A DNA stretch of 43,457 nucleotides, from positions 1 through 43,457 of the IMG/VR virus record IMGVR_UViG_3300009537_000041. One strand, written 5' to 3'. Each line of letters starts with the position of its first letter. Position 1 is the stretch's first letter. Under the pieces are notes generated by a model. The model did not search any database. It was not told where the DNA came from and saw nothing but the letters and a program-made list of their open reading frames with translations. Below are positions 30,318 to 41,967 of the stretch, in pieces. Position numbers and translations under genes: made by a program. The stretch comes from a virus.

Positions 30318-30346
30318 AGTATACCATACTTAAGTACATTTGTCAA
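30318..30346 (-). promoter_or_regulatory. sigma70 promoter upstream of RecB-like nuclease
   Basis: On the minus strand TTGACA (30341-30346) is separated by 17 bp from TATACT (30318-30323). This is a near-perfect consensus for the host housekeeping sigma factor. It would drive the nuclease, SSB-like and replication genes. The upstream signal-peptide gene ends just before it. Confidence 0.88.
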
Positions 30347-31292: not shown

Positions 31293-33001
31293 CTATCTGC
31301 AATCTTCCAATCAACTTTAATTGGTACAACTAGCTTCCATGCGTTCTCCATAAGAGTTACATGATTTTTCCAATTACTATTACCTGCAATTTCGTAAACT
31401 AGTTCATCGTGTACCATTAAAACAGGTACTTCTTTTGATCTATTATGAATAGCAACAATAGCTTTCTTTAATATATCTTGGCTACTGGATTGAATAGGAT
31501 AATTGACAGCACAACGCATGGCGTGTGCGCGTTCCCATTCATCAGGTGAATCCCATCCTTCAACATACAACGGTAAACCTGCAAGGTTCTTAGTCCACCC
31601 ATGATTACGAAGTATCTGTACCTCTTGCTCGTCCATCCAATCCTTTGCTATCGTTAGTTTAGAAAAGAATTTATCAATCATGCTTTGTGCTTCTTGAGTT
31701 GAACAATTAAAATCGTGTGCCAAGCCCCATGCTGTCTTGCCGTAGATCAAAGAGAAGTTAAATATCTTTGCCTTATCTCTAGTAATCTTAAGCAAGTTAG
31801 CGGTCTGTTGGTGAATGTCTGCATCATCATTATTAAATGCATTAAGCAGATACGGATCTTTAGTAAAGTGTGCAAACAATCGTAGTTCAATCTGTGAATA
31901 GTCAGCAATTAAAAACTTGTGCCCATCAGCAGGGATAAAAGCATTACGGATTAGCTTACCTAACTCGCTACGTATGGGTATCTGCTGTAGGTTTGGATTA
32001 GCACAGCTAAACCTGCGTGTATCCGTTAATGCTTGGTTGTATGTAGGGTGTATCCTACTACTCTTATCCGCTTTCTCAATCAACGGATCAATAAAAGTGT
32101 TTAAGTTCTTAGCCAAATCCCTCATTTGTAATAGTAGTTTTGGAAATGCATGAGATTCAGCTAACTTAGTAAGCACTTGTTTGTCTGTTGAGAAACCAGT
32201 TTTAGTTTTTTTAGTTGTCTTAAGTTTAAAATCCTTAAACAAAATCTCTCGTAGCTGTTGAGGACTGTTAAAGTTTACACCTTCTCTGCCTACTAGCTGT
32301 GATAGATCAGCCTCAACTTCTAGCTTTTCTTTCTCAAACTTTTCTTTAAGTGTTTTAAGATACTCAATATCAATCCGCACACCTTGTAGTTCAGCTTGTA
32401 CCAGAATGTTAAGCATCGGAATTTCAACAGTCTTAAACCAGTTATATAGCTCTGGTTCTTTTTCAAACCTTTTCTTCTGAAAAGTATATAGGTCGTATGT
32501 TGCTTTCGCATCTGCTTGTGCGTACTCTGCGAGTACTTCCTCCTTTATTCCGTAGTGCCTTAATACTTTCTTACCTGTCTTTGGTGTTACTCGGTACGTA
32601 TCTTCCCACCAACCGTCAGGTAATTTCTTCCTGCCCTTTAATTGTGGGTTTGCTTCAAGAAACAAGTCCATTAAATCTTTCTTCTTGTTACCAGTATATC
32701 TTTCGTATACTATCTCTAACTTCTTACGCTCATTGATGTTAAGGAGATATTCGGCTATCATAGTATCCCAATCTATTGTAATTTTAGTGCCTAAATTATT
32801 ACGTATTACAATAGCGTCATACTTTCCATTATGTGCAATAAAAAACTCGGTTCCATCGGTACTAAACGCACTTGGTTTAGGACTGTATGCTGAAATCCCT
32901 GCCCTATAAATGGAGATACCTAGTAACTTCGCTGTATGCGGATTAAGTCCAGAAGTCTCGGTATCAATTACTAGGGGTACTTGTTTTTGCTTGGCCAACA
33001 T
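31280..33001 (-). CDS. polA: family A DNA polymerase with 3'-5' exonuclease
   Basis: This protein is 573 residues long from the ATG at 33001. Exo motifs are DTE (13-15), HNGKYD (57-62) and YAQADAKATYD (160-170). Polymerase motif A is ADYSQIEL (366-373), motif B is RDKAKIFNFSLIYG (408-421) and motif C is MVHDE (529-533). The residue aligned to E. coli F762 is Phe. There is no 5' nuclease domain. It should copy the phage genome with the primase-helicase. A start 24 bases upstream uses TTG and is less likely. Confidence 0.95.
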   Translation of the reverse strand: MLAKQKQVPLVIDTETSGLNPHTAKLLGISIYRAGISAYSPKPSAFSTDGTEFFIAHNGKYDAIVIRNNLGTKITIDWDTMIAEYLLNINERKKLEIVYERYTGNKKKDLMDLFLEANPQLKGRKKLPDGWWEDTYRVTPKTGKKVLRHYGIKEEVLAEYAQADAKATYDLYTFQKKRFEKEPELYNWFKTVEIPMLNILVQAELQGVRIDIEYLKTLKEKFEKEKLEVEADLSQLVGREGVNFNSPQQLREILFKDFKLKTTKKTKTGFSTDKQVLTKLAESHAFPKLLLQMRDLAKNLNTFIDPLIEKADKSSRIHPTYNQALTDTRRFSCANPNLQQIPIRSELGKLIRNAFIPADGHKFLIADYSQIELRLFAHFTKDPYLLNAFNNDDADIHQQTANLLKITRDKAKIFNFSLIYGKTAWGLAHDFNCSTQEAQSMIDKFFSKLTIAKDWMDEQEVQILRNHGWTKNLAGLPLYVEGWDSPDEWERAHAMRCAVNYPIQSSSQDILKKAIVAIHNRSKEVPVLMVHDELVYEIAGNSNWKNHVTLMENAWKLVVPIKVDWKIADRWTK

Positions 33002-33425
33002 TAGCCACCAACCTTTTGTATGCAAATTTTAAGAAGCTATCAACACAATCAAACACTTCGTTGGAATACTGTCTTAACCAGGGATGCCTACGTAACTTTT
33101 CACTAAGACATATTGTATACACAGGCTTACCTAGTACATCATGTGCATAAAAGATTTCCATAGCAGATCCAAAACTTGCTTTGTCTGTTATGTACGCTAT
33201 AATTCCTGCCGACTCTCGTATCATTTTCTTATCGTTCTCTACAATTTCAGCAGGAGATACGTCTGTAGGCAATCCTTTATCAAGTTGTTGAATCTCTTTA
33301 GTGGGTGTACCTGCATGATTATAGAAAGGATTCGCGAGAACTAGTCCAGTTGCTTTCTCAATAAGCAACTGTACTTCCCTTGCTCTTACCCTTTCTGCTG
33401 TACCATTAGTGAAATAGTATTTCAT
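32964..33425 (-). CDS. nucleoside 2-deoxyribosyltransferase-like protein
   Basis: This 153-residue protein contains IVENDKKMIRESAGIIAYIT, then SFGSAMEIFYAHDVLGKPVY (about residues 85-104). This pattern of NDT-like folds has the catalytic Glu in the MEIFYA stretch. Such enzymes exchange or remove nucleobases from deoxynucleosides. It lies between the polymerase and a dATP/dGTP diphosphohydrolase-like gene, suggesting nucleotide-pool adjustment. The activity is not proven by sequence alone. Confidence 0.75.
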   Translation of the reverse strand: MKYYFTNGTAERVRAREVQLLIEKATGLVLANPFYNHAGTPTKEIQQLDKGLPTDVSPAEIVENDKKMIRESAGIIAYITDKASFGSAMEIFYAHDVLGKPVYTICLSEKLRRHPWLRQYSNEVFDCVDSFLKFAYKRLVANVGQAKTSTPSN

Positions 33426-33781
33426 TTTTCAATCCCCTTTTCCATTAAAGTTTCTACTGCATTTACATTAAACATAATTGCTGCTGCATGATCCTCACCA
33501 TCGTCTACTTCAAAAAACCATTGAAAGAAATGTCGGATTGCACTATTTTTAAACCTATCAAATTCTTCTTTACTATTAGCTTTTTCCCAATTTCTTTCCC
33601 CATACTTAGCTCTACCACGTTCCATTAACATGGCCCACCTATACAACATTGATTGAGGCAAGTCAATACCTTTTGCTGTAAGTAAATCAAATCTAGGTTT
33701 CCCTTCAGCAATATCACGCCTCATGCCTGAATCGTAATCAACACGTTTACCTGAATCTTTTGTTTCATAGTCTTTTGTCAT
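33422..33781 (-). CDS. dATP/dGTP diphosphohydrolase-like (MazZ-type) protein
   Basis: This 119-residue protein carries DSGMRRDIAEGKPRFDLL near residues 17-34, YGERNWEKA (about 60-68), FKNSAIRHFFQWF and EDHAAAIMFN (about 94-104). These are the hallmarks of the MazG-like dATP/dGTP diphosphohydrolase N-terminal family. It would hydrolyse purine dNTPs to monophosphates. No PurZ-like gene is visible, so base substitution in the genome cannot be concluded. Confidence 0.8.
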   Translation of the reverse strand: MTKDYETKDSGKRVDYDSGMRRDIAEGKPRFDLLTAKGIDLPQSMLYRWAMLMERGRAKYGERNWEKANSKEEFDRFKNSAIRHFFQWFFEVDDGEDHAAAIMFNVNAVETLMEKGIEK

Positions 33782-34053: not shown

Positions 34054-34824
34054 CTATTTTATGCTCCTTTGTTTTTGTGCGTCCTCTTTTGCACAGATTT
34101 TACAAACCCTACTCCATTTTCCTGTTATTTTATCCTTTCTAAAACGTGTTGTTTCTTCGGTATAAAAATGATCGCGCTTACACGTAAGTTTTAATTCCTT
34201 TCCAAAGGTCTGTTCGTGTTCTTTTTCGTTTAAATATAAAAATCTTTCTTGCCTTCTTTGTCCTAAATACGGTCTTAACAAATTAAAAACCTTTTCAGCT
34301 TCGCCAACTTTAGACGTAAACCATGAATAACATCCTTTATCGTTTCCACTATCAATCTTTCCGCATTTAACTACATTCATAAATTCTTCAAGCAGCCCTT
34401 TGTCTTTTTGTACTAAAGTTGCATGTGTTCTAAAATTTTTAGTTCCGTTTTCTTTTTGTTTATAGTAACTTGCATAAAAGCATCCTTCACCTTCAAAAAA
34501 ACCACCTGCCCAAGCTAAATTAGTAGCTGAAGATGGTTCAGTAAATACATCTGTGTTTTGTCTAGCTTTTTTATCTTCATAACTTTCGGCTACGTTTCTA
34601 TAAATCTCTAATTTTGCACATTCAATTGCCCCAAGTAACCCATTTATTTTTGCATATTTTAAACCTGCTTCACCTAATCTTGCTGTTACAAGTCGGCAGA
34701 TAATGTAATTTAATGCACCAACAGCATCTTCGTCTTTATGAATATAGCTGAAGTAATTGCAGAGACTATCTAAGTCTCCGTTTAAATCTATTTCCTTACG
34801 AAATTCTTTAACTAAATATGGCAT
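34054..34824 (-). CDS. DUF6899-like protein fused to LAGLIDADG endonuclease
   Basis: This protein is 256 residues long. Residues 1-94 look like a common phage family I recall as DUF6899: LNYIICRLVTARL, INGLLGAIECAKLEIYRN, YEDKKARQNTDV. From about residue 101 a LAGLIDADG homing nuclease begins, with WAGGFFEGEGCF (105-116). A zinc domain lies near the C-terminus (TCKRDHFYTEETTR, then CKICAKE). The usual C-terminal tail of the first family is missing. The frame is continuous. It is probably a product of homing insertion into the host gene. Confidence 0.8.
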   Translation of the reverse strand: MPYLVKEFRKEIDLNGDLDSLCNYFSYIHKDEDAVGALNYIICRLVTARLGEAGLKYAKINGLLGAIECAKLEIYRNVAESYEDKKARQNTDVFTEPSSATNLAWAGGFFEGEGCFYASYYKQKENGTKNFRTHATLVQKDKGLLEEFMNVVKCGKIDSGNDKGCYSWFTSKVGEAEKVFNLLRPYLGQRRQERFLYLNEKEHEQTFGKELKLTCKRDHFYTEETTRFRKDKITGKWSRVCKICAKEDAQKQRSIK

Positions 34825-35373: not shown

Positions 35374-35665
35374 TTTTAAGAAACCACCTGTCTACTTCCA
35401 CAAGATACGGAAGTTTAACTTTGCGAAATGCTTTTTCTTCTTTAGTTGTATTGCCTTTACCACGTTTACATTGAACCAGTATTAGTTTACCAAACTGTTT
35501 GTCTTTTGTTTTGTTCTTAGGAAACAGGAGCCATACATCAGATTTCATTTTTCCCCACGCCTTACTTCCACCACCACGTATCGCGCATACAGCACCATCT
35601 TTAAGTGCTTGTTTAATTACTTGTCTTTCCATATTTGCGCCTTTTTGGTAGTTGTTATTAGGCAT
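35366..35665 (-). CDS. Holliday-junction-resolvase-like nuclease (Hjc type)
   Basis: This 99-residue protein has KGANMERQVIKQALK (the E of the ER pair), RGGGSKAWGKMKSDVWLL (catalytic Asp) and ILVQCKRGKG (the QCK equivalent of the ExK motif). This is the ordered PD-(D/E)XK core of archaeal-type Hjc resolvases. It should cut branched recombination intermediates or concatemers. An HNH endonuclease gene lies directly upstream. Confidence 0.82.
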   Translation of the reverse strand: MPNNNYQKGANMERQVIKQALKDGAVCAIRGGGSKAWGKMKSDVWLLFPKNKTKDKQFGKLILVQCKRGKGNTTKEEKAFRKVKLPYLVEVDRWFLKSE

Positions 35666-36164
35666 AAGATTTATTTCTCCTTTGTTTTTTACAATTATCT
35701 TTAAACTCTAAATACTGACAATTATTAAATGTATAATTATCGTTTGAATCTATACGATCAATACTTGGTTTCTTCATTAAATAAGCGTTGTCTCGATACC
35801 ACAACTTTTTAAGTTCTTTAGCATTAATTAAACACTTGATACCTCTACCACCGTAAGAATTATAATTGTCTTTATTATGATTATTACATCTTGCCTTAAT
35901 ATATTTTAATGTGTTTAGCCAAGGTTTTAAACGTGTTCTTTTTTCTCTAACCTTTTTTTGAATTGCACTAACTTTTTTTGGGTTGTTCTTTATCCACCTA
36001 GTAGCTAGTTTAATCTCGTATAGTTTGTTTTTTCTGTAATGATTTTTTCGTCTAATACTTGCACAGTCTTTACAGTCTGCTTGTAAACCATCAGGGCTAG
36101 TTCTGTTGTTAGAAAACCTATTTAATGGCAAAGTTTCTTTACAAGCGTAACAGTATTTAGACAT
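35658..36164 (-). CDS. HNH homing-type endonuclease
   Basis: This 168-residue protein has an N-terminal zinc module (CYACKETL, then CKDCAS). The C-terminal HNH region has RCNNHNKDNYNSYGGRGIKC and PSIDRIDSNDNYTFNNCQYL. The second motif is typical of phage HNH enzymes. It overlaps both neighbours, so it may be a mobile intron-less nuclease gene embedded in the operon. Confidence 0.82.
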   Translation of the reverse strand: MSKYCYACKETLPLNRFSNNRTSPDGLQADCKDCASIRRKNHYRKNKLYEIKLATRWIKNNPKKVSAIQKKVREKRTRLKPWLNTLKYIKARCNNHNKDNYNSYGGRGIKCLINAKELKKLWYRDNAYLMKKPSIDRIDSNDNYTFNNCQYLEFKDNCKKQRRNKSYA

Positions 36165-38112: not shown

Positions 38113-38382
38113 TTAAATTAAGCGTATATCTAACGTCTGTGTAGTAAGCAGTACGTTTTCTTGATTATTCAGTATCTTAATAAAGTGTGCTAGTCTATCT
38201 ACTTTATTTTCTCCTTCTCTTGATTCATCTGTAATAATCTCGATAACCAACGCACTCTCTTTAATTCCTTTCCAGTATCCTGCTCCTTCCAGTACTGTAA
38301 AGCCCTCAAATTCTTTACTTACTTCTTTAGTAATCAACGCTTTATTTTTGTTTTCTGTGTATAACCTGTACAGTTTATTCAT
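38113..38382 (-). CDS. 89-residue hypothetical protein
   Basis: The product begins MNKLYRLYTENKNKAL and continues with alternating helix and strand (GYWKGIKESALVIEIITDES, VDRLAHFIKILNNQENVLL). It resembles a small alpha/beta protein, but no family is recognised. The start overlaps the upstream stop (TAATG). The hairpin at 38060 follows. Confidence 0.65.
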   Translation of the reverse strand: MNKLYRLYTENKNKALITKEVSKEFEGFTVLEGAGYWKGIKESALVIEIITDESREGENKVDRLAHFIKILNNQENVLLTTQTLDIRLI

Positions 38383-38495
38383 TACTTCACCACCACTTCT
38401 GCGTTATGTAACGCTACACCGTTACGGATTAGCAGGTGTATGATGTGTTGCCACTTCGGATTACTATTTTTCTTGGAGTCAATGATTATTCGCAT
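38382..38495 (-). CDS. 37-residue hypothetical protein
   Basis: AAGGAGAG precedes the start. The product begins MRIIIDSKKNSNPKWQHII and continues HLLIRNGVALHNAEVVVK. It overlaps the previous gene and the next start. It could be a small DNA-binding-type helix. A promoter (38520-38548) lies just upstream. Confidence 0.6.
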   Translation of the reverse strand: MRIIIDSKKNSNPKWQHIIHLLIRNGVALHNAEVVVK

Positions 38496-38722
38496 TTGTC
38501 ACTCTCCTTGTTTAACTTAAGTGTAACATACTTTCCTTTGCTTGTCAAGTTTACAGCTTTTAATGACTGTTCAAGGTGTTTCTGTACTACCTTTAAGTTT
38601 TCCGTATGTACGTCTATACGTCCACGCAGATACGCGAGTTCTTTATCATGGTCGCGTTCCGTATGCACGTGTTTTATTATTCTTACGCACTTATCACAAC
38701 TTCTATAACCTAAATGTGCCAT
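38486..38722 (-). CDS. 78-residue protein with Cys pair and coiled coil
   Basis: The start abuts the GAT-II stop (TAA then ATG), and AAAGGA lies upstream. The product begins MAHLGYRSCDKCVRII and continues as a charged coiled-coil helix (HTENLKVVQKHLEQSLKAV). The second half overlaps a promoter for downstream genes. It may associate with the GAT-II protein, which it follows. Confidence 0.65.
   Translation of the reverse strand: MAHLGYRSCDKCVRIIKHVHTERDHDKELAYLRGRIDVHTENLKVVQKHLEQSLKAVNLTSKGKYVTLKLNKESDKCE
38520..38548 (-). promoter_or_regulatory. sigma70 promoter inside the 38486-38722 gene
   Basis: Minus-strand TTGACA (38543-38548), a 17-bp spacer, TACACT (38520-38525). It would initiate transcription of the 38495-38113 pair and the genes below. 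Overlap with a coding end fits compact early gene packing. Confidence 0.75.
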
Positions 38723-39715
38723 TTAGCACCATCCTTTTCTCATGTAGTCCATAAACTCTTTATCAGGGTCTATGATTCTACCATATTGTTTATTTTCACT
38801 ATTGTCTAAACCCCACCTACGTATACGTTTACGGCACTTCTTACACGCCCACCCTTGAAGCTGATCATTCCACTTTAACGGTTTGCGTTTGTCACACCTG
38901 TCGCATGTATCCACTACAGGTAGGTTTGAACTATCAGCCGTATCCGTACCTTCGTAATACGTGGTGGATTCGATCTTATAATACGGTACGCTGTCAATAT
39001 GCTGTTCGTTAACCACGCCTTTATCCGTAACCTGAAACAAGCTATTCGTAGGTAGTTTTAACTCTCTTAATTGCAAGTTAAATACAGCGTTTACCTTTTG
39101 AATTACGCTTCCTTCACTCGACCAGATAATGTACGACTTATTCTTATCCGTCCAGATGCTTAACGTGTTCGTGTCACGTGTGAAATTAATCACACTAGGG
39201 GCAATCAGGTCTATAAATGCTACAGACCAGTAACCGCCTAAACTTTCAAGTGACTTACTTCGTGTTTCGCGTGTGTCACTATTAGCCACTAGCTGAAAAA
39301 TTACTTCACTATCACAAGTAGTTTTCAGTTTAAAATTCTCTGCCTTTGCGATATCTTCATGGTTATAGATCACGCCATTATGCGTGCCTATAATATGGTC
39401 TACTTTAAAGGGTTGAGCATTTTTAAGGTTCACATCACCTGTAGTAGCATACCGCGTATGCCCTAAGATCGTCTGCACATCTGTACAGATAAACTTATCA
39501 ATCTTTTTCCTATTCTGCTTATTGTTCAGGAATTTTTTTGCTTTGCATACCTGCTTAAACGTAAATGCCTTACCGTTCCTGATAACGCTAATACCTGTAC
39601 TATCCTTGCCACGCGCTTGATTCTCGATAGCAAGTAAGTTAATAATACCCCTTAACTTATCATCTGTTAAAGGTGTATTCTCCTTAATTCTGTGGTATCC
39701 GTAAATTCCGCACAT
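38723..39715 (-). CDS. class II glutamine amidotransferase with zinc ribbon
   Basis: This protein is 330 residues long when started at 39715, so that Cys2 of MCGIYG is the N-terminal nucleophile. GAT-II motifs are GKDSTG (36-41), GHTRYATTGD (85-94), HNGVIYN (112-118) and CDSE (134-137). The C-terminal tail has a zinc ribbon (C271, C274, C291, C294). It should release ammonia from glutamine. The gene lies next to an amidoligase, so it may supply ammonia or act on a shared substrate. AAAGGAAG lies upstream. An alternative GTG start would hide the Cys. Confidence 0.9.
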   Translation of the reverse strand: MCGIYGYHRIKENTPLTDDKLRGIINLLAIENQARGKDSTGISVIRNGKAFTFKQVCKAKKFLNNKQNRKKIDKFICTDVQTILGHTRYATTGDVNLKNAQPFKVDHIIGTHNGVIYNHEDIAKAENFKLKTTCDSEVIFQLVANSDTRETRSKSLESLGGYWSVAFIDLIAPSVINFTRDTNTLSIWTDKNKSYIIWSSEGSVIQKVNAVFNLQLRELKLPTNSLFQVTDKGVVNEQHIDSVPYYKIESTTYYEGTDTADSSNLPVVDTCDRCDKRKPLKWNDQLQGWACKKCRKRIRRWGLDNSENKQYGRIIDPDKEFMDYMRKGWC

Positions 39716-39750
39716 TCTGTTTATCACTTCCTTTCGTGTTGCCTATTTAA

Positions 39751-39779
39751 AGTGTAGCATACTTCATTCGATTTGTCAA
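39751..39779 (-). promoter_or_regulatory. sigma70 promoter of the GAT-II gene
   Basis: Minus-strand TTGACA (39774-39779), a 17-bp spacer, TACACT (39751-39756). The palindromic motif at 39804-39822 lies about 36 bp upstream of the -35 box (centre to box), so an activator-type position is possible. Confidence 0.85.
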
Positions 39780-39803
39780 GTTATAAAGGGTTAATTTCGG
39801 TTT

Positions 39804-39822
39804 GTGTGCCAATTTGACACAC
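39804..39822. promoter_or_regulatory. operator-like palindrome, copy 1
   Basis: GTGTGCCAATTTGACACAC is a near-perfect dyad GTGTGnCA-N3-TGnCACAC. The same 19-bp pattern occurs at 41257-41275 and 41949-41967. It lies between the GAT-II promoter and the amidoligase terminator hairpin. Confidence 0.7.
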
Positions 39823-39831
39823 CTTGCGTAT

Positions 39832-39868
39832 CAGGCTTCAGGGGCGCATGTTCGCGCCCCCTAGCCTG
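39832..39868. terminator. long hairpin after the amidoligase gene
   Basis: Outer arms CAGGCT (39832-39837) and AGCCTG (39863-39868) enclose inner arms GGGGCGC (39841-39847) and GCGCCCC (39854-39860) with loop ATGTTC. It starts 7 bases past the amidoligase stop. There is no T-run, as with the hairpins at 29042 and 38060. Confidence 0.75.
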
Positions 39869-39874
39869 TACTCC

Positions 39875-40993
39875 TTAAATTTTACTGTATCCATGTACCG
39901 CTTTTTGCCACTTGCGCTTACGTGTTTCGAGATATTTGATTAATCCTTTGTCAGTTTGATCAAGTGCAAGTGTAGTATAAAACTTGTACCAATCGTCAAC
40001 TGATAATGGATTAGCCGTTTTATCTGTATCCCAAAAAATATCCTTTTGGTATTCTACAATCCTTAAAAGAAGTTTAATCCAATTAATCATCTTTTCAGGA
40101 TTAAGAGTACCTGCGTGATACCTAAATTCAAGTGTACCATGCTTTCTTATACTCGCCAAATTGATACCGTAATATCTGCACTTCGTAGCAATATGGCGTT
40201 TATAAGCAGGGATATCCTTTTTAAACGTGTTAAGGTGATTCAAGCTGTATTCTAGCCTTTGCGACCACGTACCCGATTGACGCGAATTAGGTAACATGGA
40301 GTAAATTAAAGGCTCGAATACCCTTAAAAACGATACCACGTTTATAATCTGATTATCGGTCAAATCGCCCACGCCTATATGCACGTGGAATCCGCAATCC
40401 CGCGTTACCCGATAACCTAAATTTTTTAACGCGGTAAACTGTTCCGATATCATTTCAAGCCCTTTATTCCCTTGCAAAATACCAGACACGTATTCCTGCC
40501 CGTATTCGCTTGTATTTAAAGAGCCGTCCTCAACGATTTTAAAGCCATTATTGCACCTAAAATCGCCATCGACACCGTAACACTCAACCTCAACACCAAA
40601 CGTTCTCTTAATATGTGCCGTTTTGTCACATTTACCGTCTGTATATATCCCTATGCCTATTTTATTGGGATAATCTCTCGGCAAACAGTCTATGCAATAA
40701 TCCTGGTTACGTGATTCTACATATTGCAAGTCTTCACGTAATACAGTTGTACCGCAATCATCACAGTGGCCGTAATTCTCGCTATAGCAATCTAGGCAAT
40801 ACGTGCCGCAACCTACACGATACGCGTCTAGCTTATGTATTACTTCAGAGCAAACGTCACATTCTCTGTAGTGTTGCTCGAAGCAATTGACACACGCCTC
40901 TTTATTATCAGGCGTGGCTATTAGAGAATTAACAGGCACTAATGTAGTACAAAACGCACACACCTTATGCGAAAACCGTTTAGTTGTGTCCAT
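39875..40993 (-). CDS. GS-fold amidoligase with N-terminal zinc domains
   Basis: This protein is 372 residues long. The N-terminal 105 residues hold three or more Cys-rich LIM- or treble-clef-like pairs: C12/C15, C34/C37, C45/C48, C66/C69, C77/C80, C100/C103. The catalytic part matches the glutamine-synthetase-fold amidoligase family (Amidoligase_2): GVEVE (133-137), EDGS (155-158), EYVSG (167-171), GFHVHIG (201-207) and LEFRYH (288-293). It should join a carboxylate to an amine using ATP. The substrate is unknown; a host or phage protein is likely given the zinc modules. TAAGGAGA precedes the start, and the promoter is at 41133-41162. Confidence 0.9.
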   Translation of the reverse strand: MDTTKRFSHKVCAFCTTLVPVNSLIATPDNKEACVNCFEQHYRECDVCSEVIHKLDAYRVGCGTYCLDCYSENYGHCDDCGTTVLREDLQYVESRNQDYCIDCLPRDYPNKIGIGIYTDGKCDKTAHIKRTFGVEVECYGVDGDFRCNNGFKIVEDGSLNTSEYGQEYVSGILQGNKGLEMISEQFTALKNLGYRVTRDCGFHVHIGVGDLTDNQIINVVSFLRVFEPLIYSMLPNSRQSGTWSQRLEYSLNHLNTFKKDIPAYKRHIATKCRYYGINLASIRKHGTLEFRYHAGTLNPEKMINWIKLLLRIVEYQKDIFWDTDKTANPLSVDDWYKFYTTLALDQTDKGLIKYLETRKRKWQKAVHGYSKI

Positions 40994-41132: not shown

Positions 41133-41162
41133 ATGATAACACAAGGGGATTCAGCTTGTCAA
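41133..41162 (-). promoter_or_regulatory. sigma70 promoter of the amidoligase
   Basis: Minus-strand TTGACA (41157-41162), an 18-bp spacer, TATCAT (41133-41138). Upstream of the -35 box lies an AT-rich block with GATATAAGGTGG, which recurs near the next promoter. The 5' leader is about 130 bases. Confidence 0.78.
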
Positions 41163-41256: not shown

Positions 41257-41275
41257 GTGTGCCATAATGACACAC
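41257..41275. promoter_or_regulatory. operator-like palindrome, copy 2
   Basis: GTGTGCCATAATGACACAC is flanked by A and T, extending the dyad. It lies 105 bp upstream of the amidoligase -35 box and just downstream of the terminator of the 57-residue gene. Confidence 0.7.
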
Positions 41276-41948: not shown

Positions 41949-41967
41949 ATGTGCCATCTTGACACAC
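41949..41967. promoter_or_regulatory. operator-like palindrome, copy 3
   Basis: ATGTGCCATCTTGACACAC is the same dyad with one mismatch in the outer arm. It lies 146 bp upstream of the leader promoter -35 box. Confidence 0.6.

Follow-up and report, generated by a model that had tools for sequence, protein, structure and literature searches.

The window analysed here, the complete 43,457-nucleotide viral record IMGVR_UViG_3300009537_000041, carries adjacent genes for an Amidoligase_2 protein and a class II glutamine amidotransferase (GAT-II). Judged from their sequences, the two genes form a module that is real, conserved and plausible in function; its kind is known, but the variant, with a zinc array on the amidoligase, is less ordinary. 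With middling confidence, we read the pair as a two-enzyme module that would use glutamine to amidate a carboxylate on a peptide or protein, the zinc modules serving recognition. The sequence-only reading, made before this analysis, had called the coupling of these enzyme classes known only in principle; reports on several phages already describe it as a phage cassette (PMC3890496, PMC5498523, PMC10580990).

The genes and their parts are the following.

39875-40993, minus strand: Amidoligase_2 protein of 372 amino acids, a predicted GS/GCS-fold carboxylate-amine ligase with an N-terminal zinc array (PF12224, phrog_2443, structural model)
40685-40960, minus strand: zinc array of the amidoligase, three tandem C-x2-C-x(17-19)-C-x2-C units, residues 12-103 (cysteine pattern, L090 relative)
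40040-40606, minus strand: catalytic core of the amidoligase, residues 130-318, with GVEVE, GFHVHIG and LEFRYH (motifs and alignment)
38723-39715, minus strand: predicted class II glutamine amidotransferase (NTN-hydrolase glutaminase) of 330 amino acids with Cys2 (PF13522, similarity to PurF and GlmS)
38834-38905, minus strand: C-terminal zinc ribbon of GAT-II, CDRCDKRKPLKWNDQLQGWACKKC (cysteine pattern)
38486-38722, minus strand: 78-amino-acid CxxC open reading frame beginning at the GAT-II stop, with no family and no relative; a role in the system is not supported

The proposal of a GS-fold amidoligase is borne out by profile searches. The protein matches PF12224 (Pfam profile search, E=1.3e-20, 74.8 bits against a cut-off of 22) and phrog_2443 (PHROG search, E 2.2e-31), and all core motifs are present, GVEVE at residue 133, GFHVHIG at 201 and LEFRYH at 288. 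The acidic, histidine and arginine motif residues of a GS/GCS-like active site are all kept, and E135, E137, D156, E167, H203, H205, N278, E289 and R291 are unchanged across an alignment of eight divergent members. Eight divergent amidoligases, once aligned, varied too much for the alignment to be used in scanning, and no viral contig was recovered when the window amidoligase by itself was the query of a direct similarity search. As modelled (mean pLDDT 82), the protein has the GS/GCS fold: the best Foldseek match is YbdK (E 4e-6, probability 1.00), and further matches are gamma-glutamylmethylamide synthetase (GmaS) and glutamine synthetases (probability about 1). Because the model is closest to these enzymes, it fits ATP activation of a carboxylate followed by ligation to an amine, although the low TM-scores (at most 0.38 for the query) count against this mechanistic reading.

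GAT-II matches PF13522 (GATase_6; Pfam profile search, E=3.3e-17, 63.2 bits against a cut-off of 27) and is similar in sequence to the glutaminase domain in PurF and GlmS proteins of solved structure. The catalytic cysteine of class II glutaminases comes directly after the methionine, so the start must be the ATG at 39715, which gives the N-terminus MCGIYGYH, and not the listed GTG at 39727. Apart from this shift, both open reading frames of the pair lie where the sequence-only reading had placed them. Cys2, Arg88, Thr91, Asn113-Gly114 and Asp135 are invariant in an alignment with distant relatives; the loss of catalytic residues, which had been named beforehand as a point that would tell against the proposal, is thus seen in neither enzyme's alignment. 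The ribbon follows the pattern C271-x2-C274-x16-C291-x2-C294, with a unit spacing that nearly matches that of the amidoligase array units. The PF13522 match, the active-site residues and the four ribbon cysteines agree with the proposed class II amidotransferase with Cys2 and a zinc ribbon. Identification as PurF, GlmS or AsnB was considered and rejected: the 330 residues comprise a glutaminase domain and a zinc ribbon only, with no synthase domain.

The array of the amidoligase had been put at no fewer than six cysteine pairs. We count six CxxC pairs, starting at residues 12, 34, 45, 66, 77 and 100, a number reached in none of 20,000 composition shuffles of the protein (mean 0.82). A relative from another viral cassette (L090), 32% identical to the window amidoligase, keeps all twelve array cysteines, and this part of the structural model mostly has a pLDDT of at least 90. 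LIM structures are present among the weak fold matches of the model. A LIM domain has only two residues between its zinc half-sites (C-x2-C-x2-C-x2-C); seven residues separate successive units of the array, and we rejected this identification on spacing. The array, rather than the GAT-II ribbon, is the unusual feature of the pair. The ribbon is not special because most phage GAT-II relatives carry one, whereas the zinc-array amidoligase variant was not seen in the published phage amidoligase/GAT-II cassettes examined.

A survey of phage neighbourhoods, suggested in the sequence-only reading, revealed conserved co-occurrence. An amidoligase lies within about 6 kb of 145 of the 152 viral GAT-II loci (74/80 and 71/72), the PF12224 cut-off is passed in 41 of 50 whole viral records holding GAT-II, and in the reverse direction GAT-II is present in 9 of 16 amidoligase-first phage loci; these figures count records and not independent events, as some loci overlap or are near-copies. 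The seven amidoligase-first loci without GAT-II, of which three are short fragments, come from Bacillus, Geobacillus, Porphyromonas and unannotated records. The pairing is not chance. The link is looser from the amidoligase side, which makes GAT-II the more dependent partner of the two; and since amidoligases are also found without GAT-II, the family does not require a dedicated GAT-II as its source of ammonia. The cassette is found in phages with quite different neighbouring genes and very different hosts. Cellular homologues were limited to two loci, one of which may be a prophage, as an adjoining open reading frame resembles by eye a phage late-control/tail protein. The kept residues and the conserved adjacency argue well for the proposed coupling of a GS-fold ligase with a glutaminase.

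We sorted the survey loci with locally built profiles into two types, with only two mixed loci between them. Type 1 (66 loci) combines a zinc-free amidoligase with a PF14395-type ligase and an ATP-grasp. Type 2 (78 loci, including the window itself and its own database copy) combines one or more zinc-array amidoligases with GAT-II, without the PF14395-type ligase or ATP-grasp, and carries zinc modules on both enzymes. Type 2 loci usually hold two amidoligases (about 600 and 390 amino acids) and a small protein of ~100 amino acids, but this is not universal: some are without the second amidoligase, the small protein or both.

By its gene content, the window is a reduced type 2 cassette, with a zinc-array amidoligase and a zinc GAT-II but neither PF14395 nor ATP-grasp. 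Pfam's own model of the PF14395 COOH-NH2 ligase has no match in the window record, no window open reading frame matches the locally built ATP-grasp and gamma-glutamyl cyclotransferase profiles, and profile scans of the window found no second amidoligase and no ~100-amino-acid small protein. Type 2 cassettes from IMG/VR (L090, L109, L133) share with the window the zinc GAT-II and the absence of PF14395 and ATP-grasp, and their zinc-array amidoligase is about 29-35% identical to that of the window; they differ in usually having two amidoligases and the small protein, whereas the window carries a single amidoligase and lacks the small protein. In a tree of the amidoligase core, type 1 falls on one side, with the exception of three rows, and the window core stands with L042 beside the main zinc clade, not clearly inside it (support 94, open fork). 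A second, sandwich-like arrangement occurs in two loci (L084 and L089), where two zinc-free amidoligases flank one GAT-II with an ~18-base overlap.

The LUZ24-type cassette (Bruynoghevirus LUZ24 gp16-gp22; UFV-P2, tf, RIO-1, PSA-HP1, phiEco32) resembles the window in having Amidoligase_2 directly before GAT-II in the early block and a GAT-II with a C-terminal zinc ribbon. In LUZ24, gp18 is the amidoligase and gp19 the GAT-II, with a PF14395-type ligase, a RimK-like ATP-grasp and a gamma-glutamyl cyclotransferase on their flanks; this set has also been described for UFV-P2 (PMC3890496). Cassettes of this type have the PF14395 ligase, the ATP-grasp, often the cyclotransferase, and a zinc-free amidoligase, whereas the window lacks the first three and has the zinc array. 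The cassette in RIO-1-like phages has been called a peptidoglycan modification cassette (PMC5498523), and the OM43 phages MEP401 and MEP402 are reported to carry PF12224 and PF13522 together (PMC10580990). The Arthrobacter phages Wheelbite (genes 93-94) and Ottawa (65-66) have, like the window, an amidoligase followed by GAT-II with no PF14395 or ATP-grasp. Unlike in the window, a cyclotransferase-like gene precedes their pair, and Wheelbite has neither the zinc array nor the GAT-II ribbon. In two Arthrobacter phage loci, the gene that comes just ahead of the pair (L004:7117-7569 and L176:5201-5668) is annotated as hypothetical and matches the cyclotransferase (GGCT) profile. Podoviridae sp. 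ctgrD200 from Manatee Spring (MW202733) also has a zinc-array amidoligase with a class II glutaminase-like gene after it, but its GAT-II is of a distant type (MCLLIKQ start) and its amidoligase falls in another branch. As far as the published accounts go, the functions given for such cassettes are predictions, mostly tracing to Iyer et al. 2009, and our literature search found no biochemistry for the pair and no reported substrate.

The DNA around the pair contains several candidate signals.

39751-39779, minus strand: promoter-like site TTGACA-17-TACACT with TG, directly upstream of GAT-II (pattern scan)
41133-41162, minus strand: promoter-like site TTGACA-18-TATCAT, upstream of the amidoligase (pattern scan)
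39804-39822, minus strand: palindrome GTGTGTCAaatTGGCACAC, operator candidate upstream of the GAT-II promoter-like site (palindrome search)
41257-41275, minus strand: the same 19-bp palindrome, upstream of the amidoligase promoter-like site (palindrome search)
41949-41967, minus strand: the palindrome again, at a third position farther upstream within the early block, with one outer-arm mismatch (palindrome search)
39833-39867, minus strand: strong hairpin just downstream of the amidoligase gene, with no T-run (intergenic fold, z = -4.5)

Because the intergenic gap holds its own promoter-like site and two hairpins, the pair is not one tight transcription unit. The hairpin at 39833-39867 has no Rfam match. 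The three early-block palindromes give the consensus GTGTGYCAnnnTGRCACAC, and the presence of the palindrome before both promoter-like sites suggests co-regulation of the amidoligase and GAT-II. The palindrome core has 3 matches against 0.22 expected (0 of 100 shuffles) and the pattern from the GAT-II promoter-like site has 4 matches with up to two mismatches against 0.51 expected, counts that are biased to the extent that both patterns were built from the window's own sites. A general promoter scan gave no more sites than in shuffles. The GAT-II promoter-like site has an exact second copy at 38520-38548, and the motif TTGACAA-N8-AAGTATGnTACACT/TATACT is repeated on the early strand at 39751-39779, 38520-38548 and 30318-30346; it is possibly a phage-specific promoter consensus.

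Elsewhere in the window, no integrase or repressor was found among the open reading frames scanned, a result compatible with, but no proof of, the lytic habit assumed in the sequence-only reading. The terminase and DNA polymerase matches are all <60% identical and mixed, so a host assignment is not supported. Beside the DNA polymerase, a dATP/dGTP diphosphohydrolase-like protein adjoins a weak nucleoside 2-deoxyribosyltransferase-like protein (33422-33781 and 32964-33425), with nucleotide-pool editing as a possible role. Two likely homing endonucleases, LAGLIDADG-like and HNH-like, were read from the translations at 34054-34824 and 35658-36164 in the early block.

In the proposed amidation module, GAT-II, judging by its residues and family, would hydrolyse glutamine to glutamate and ammonia. 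With no synthase domain of its own, GAT-II must pass this ammonia to a partner, and the amidoligase is the neighbour that is conserved. In the manner of glutamine synthetase and gamma-glutamyl ligases, the amidoligase would use ATP to activate a carboxylate and would then form an amide bond with the ammonia from GAT-II; the modelled fold and the motifs support a ligase, and the conserved adjacency points to the coupling. The three ribbons of the amidoligase and that of GAT-II may hold a macromolecular substrate or the partner enzyme, and what the module makes in the infected cell would most likely be a peptide or protein amidated at a side chain or terminus. As a class, zinc ribbons are frequent nucleic-acid binders; those of the pair could equally act in this way, which counts against this docking role. 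The DNA signals suggest that each gene would have its own promoter, active early, with one palindromic operator common to both. The simplest joint outcome of the two enzymes would be that a carboxylate of a peptide or protein is amidated.

In a narrower version of this reading, which we consider doubtful, the pair would amidate or crosslink murein stem-peptide carboxyls, a peptidoglycan modification for superinfection exclusion. We know of no zinc arrays that are parts of cell-wall ligases, which counts against it, as does the fact that the proposal rests on the PF14395 ligase, ATP-grasp and gamma-glutamyl cyclotransferase, all three of which the window lacks. The proposal is a published one (PMC5498523; cited from Iyer et al. 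2009 in PMC10580990 and PMC11318856) and MurT/GatD provides a mechanistic precedent in the glutamine-dependent amidation of cell-wall peptides (PMC3267633), but no experimental trial of the cassette was found in the literature.

Conjugation in the style of the Pup ligase, in which an amine-bearing molecule (an amino acid, a polyamine, a lysine of a protein or a small carrier protein) is joined to the carboxylate, is unlikely. GAT-II would then only supply glutamate or ammonia, or edit the product. The GS/GCS fold does include ligases for amines other than ammonia (YbdK, GmaS), and type 2 relatives offer a conserved candidate partner in the ~100-amino-acid protein, which in most of these cassettes sits between GAT-II and the shorter amidoligase. 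An independent scan with its alignment gave 79 loci, with GAT-II just upstream in 77, an amidoligase just downstream in 76, and a PF14395-type ligase or ATP-grasp in none. The protein has no Pfam family over the cut-off and no convincing PHROG, and a fold search returned only unnamed viral proteins and no solved structure. Its tails are conserved (TTNIGV or ANYGIA-like); the last eleven residues have low model confidence yet are conserved, and the tail is probably flexible. We regard the protein as a candidate substrate, carrier or adaptor from a previously undescribed family, noted in the loci L090-L173 and L186-L263 (for instance L133:6986-7309 and L121:7211-7507). Nevertheless, the constraint on the tail is only slightly stronger than on the rest (47% versus 57% of differing codons are non-synonymous), and a search of the window found no relative of the protein. 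The neighbouring 89-amino-acid gene (38113-38382), with a weak DUF3574 match below the cut-off, is unrelated to it. The 78-amino-acid CxxC protein, which had been suggested as a third component of the system, does not resemble it either, has no Pfam or PHROG family, and has no relatives in 50,697 phage records and none in the cassette loci; we dropped that suggestion.

An auxiliary role in nitrogen or amino-acid metabolism is improbable. Ammonia would be shuffled into glutamine, glutamate or glutathione-like metabolites, and a nitrogen role has been proposed for phage ZRK32, with genes for an amidoligase, a glutamine amidotransferase, a glutathione synthase and a gamma-glutamylcyclotransferase, on evidence reported as growth effects and not enzyme activity (PMC10945688). 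The window lacks the last two of these genes. To feed a glutamine-synthetase-like enzyme from a glutaminase would amount to a futile cycle, and work on small molecules would not call for a three-unit zinc array. Most improbable is amidation of a carboxylated base or nucleotide by the ligase with the zinc modules bound to DNA or RNA: the nucleic-acid binding common among zinc ribbons and the dGTP/dATP pyrophosphohydrolase-like and weak nucleoside deoxyribosyltransferase-like proteins of the early block favour it, but the open reading frames scanned include no base-carboxylating, hydroxymethylating or deazaguanine enzyme, and in other phages the cassette occurs beside quite different genes.

Glutamine-dependent amidation thus remains our preferred reading of the pair. 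It is quite unlikely, but conceivable, that zinc-array amidoligases and a zinc glutaminase make up a viral system for protein conjugation not described before, that they would alter a small dedicated carrier protein or attach it, and that the window holds a pared-down version; in function such a system would be comparable to pupylation or to amino-group carriers. The carrier would be the ~100-amino-acid protein with its conserved flexible C-terminus, and the window phage would use another partner. Setting apart a zinc-array type without PF14395 or ATP-grasp partners reduces the minimal working unit to two genes, and because its type 2 relatives offer a candidate substrate or carrier protein, the question of the substrate becomes directly testable.
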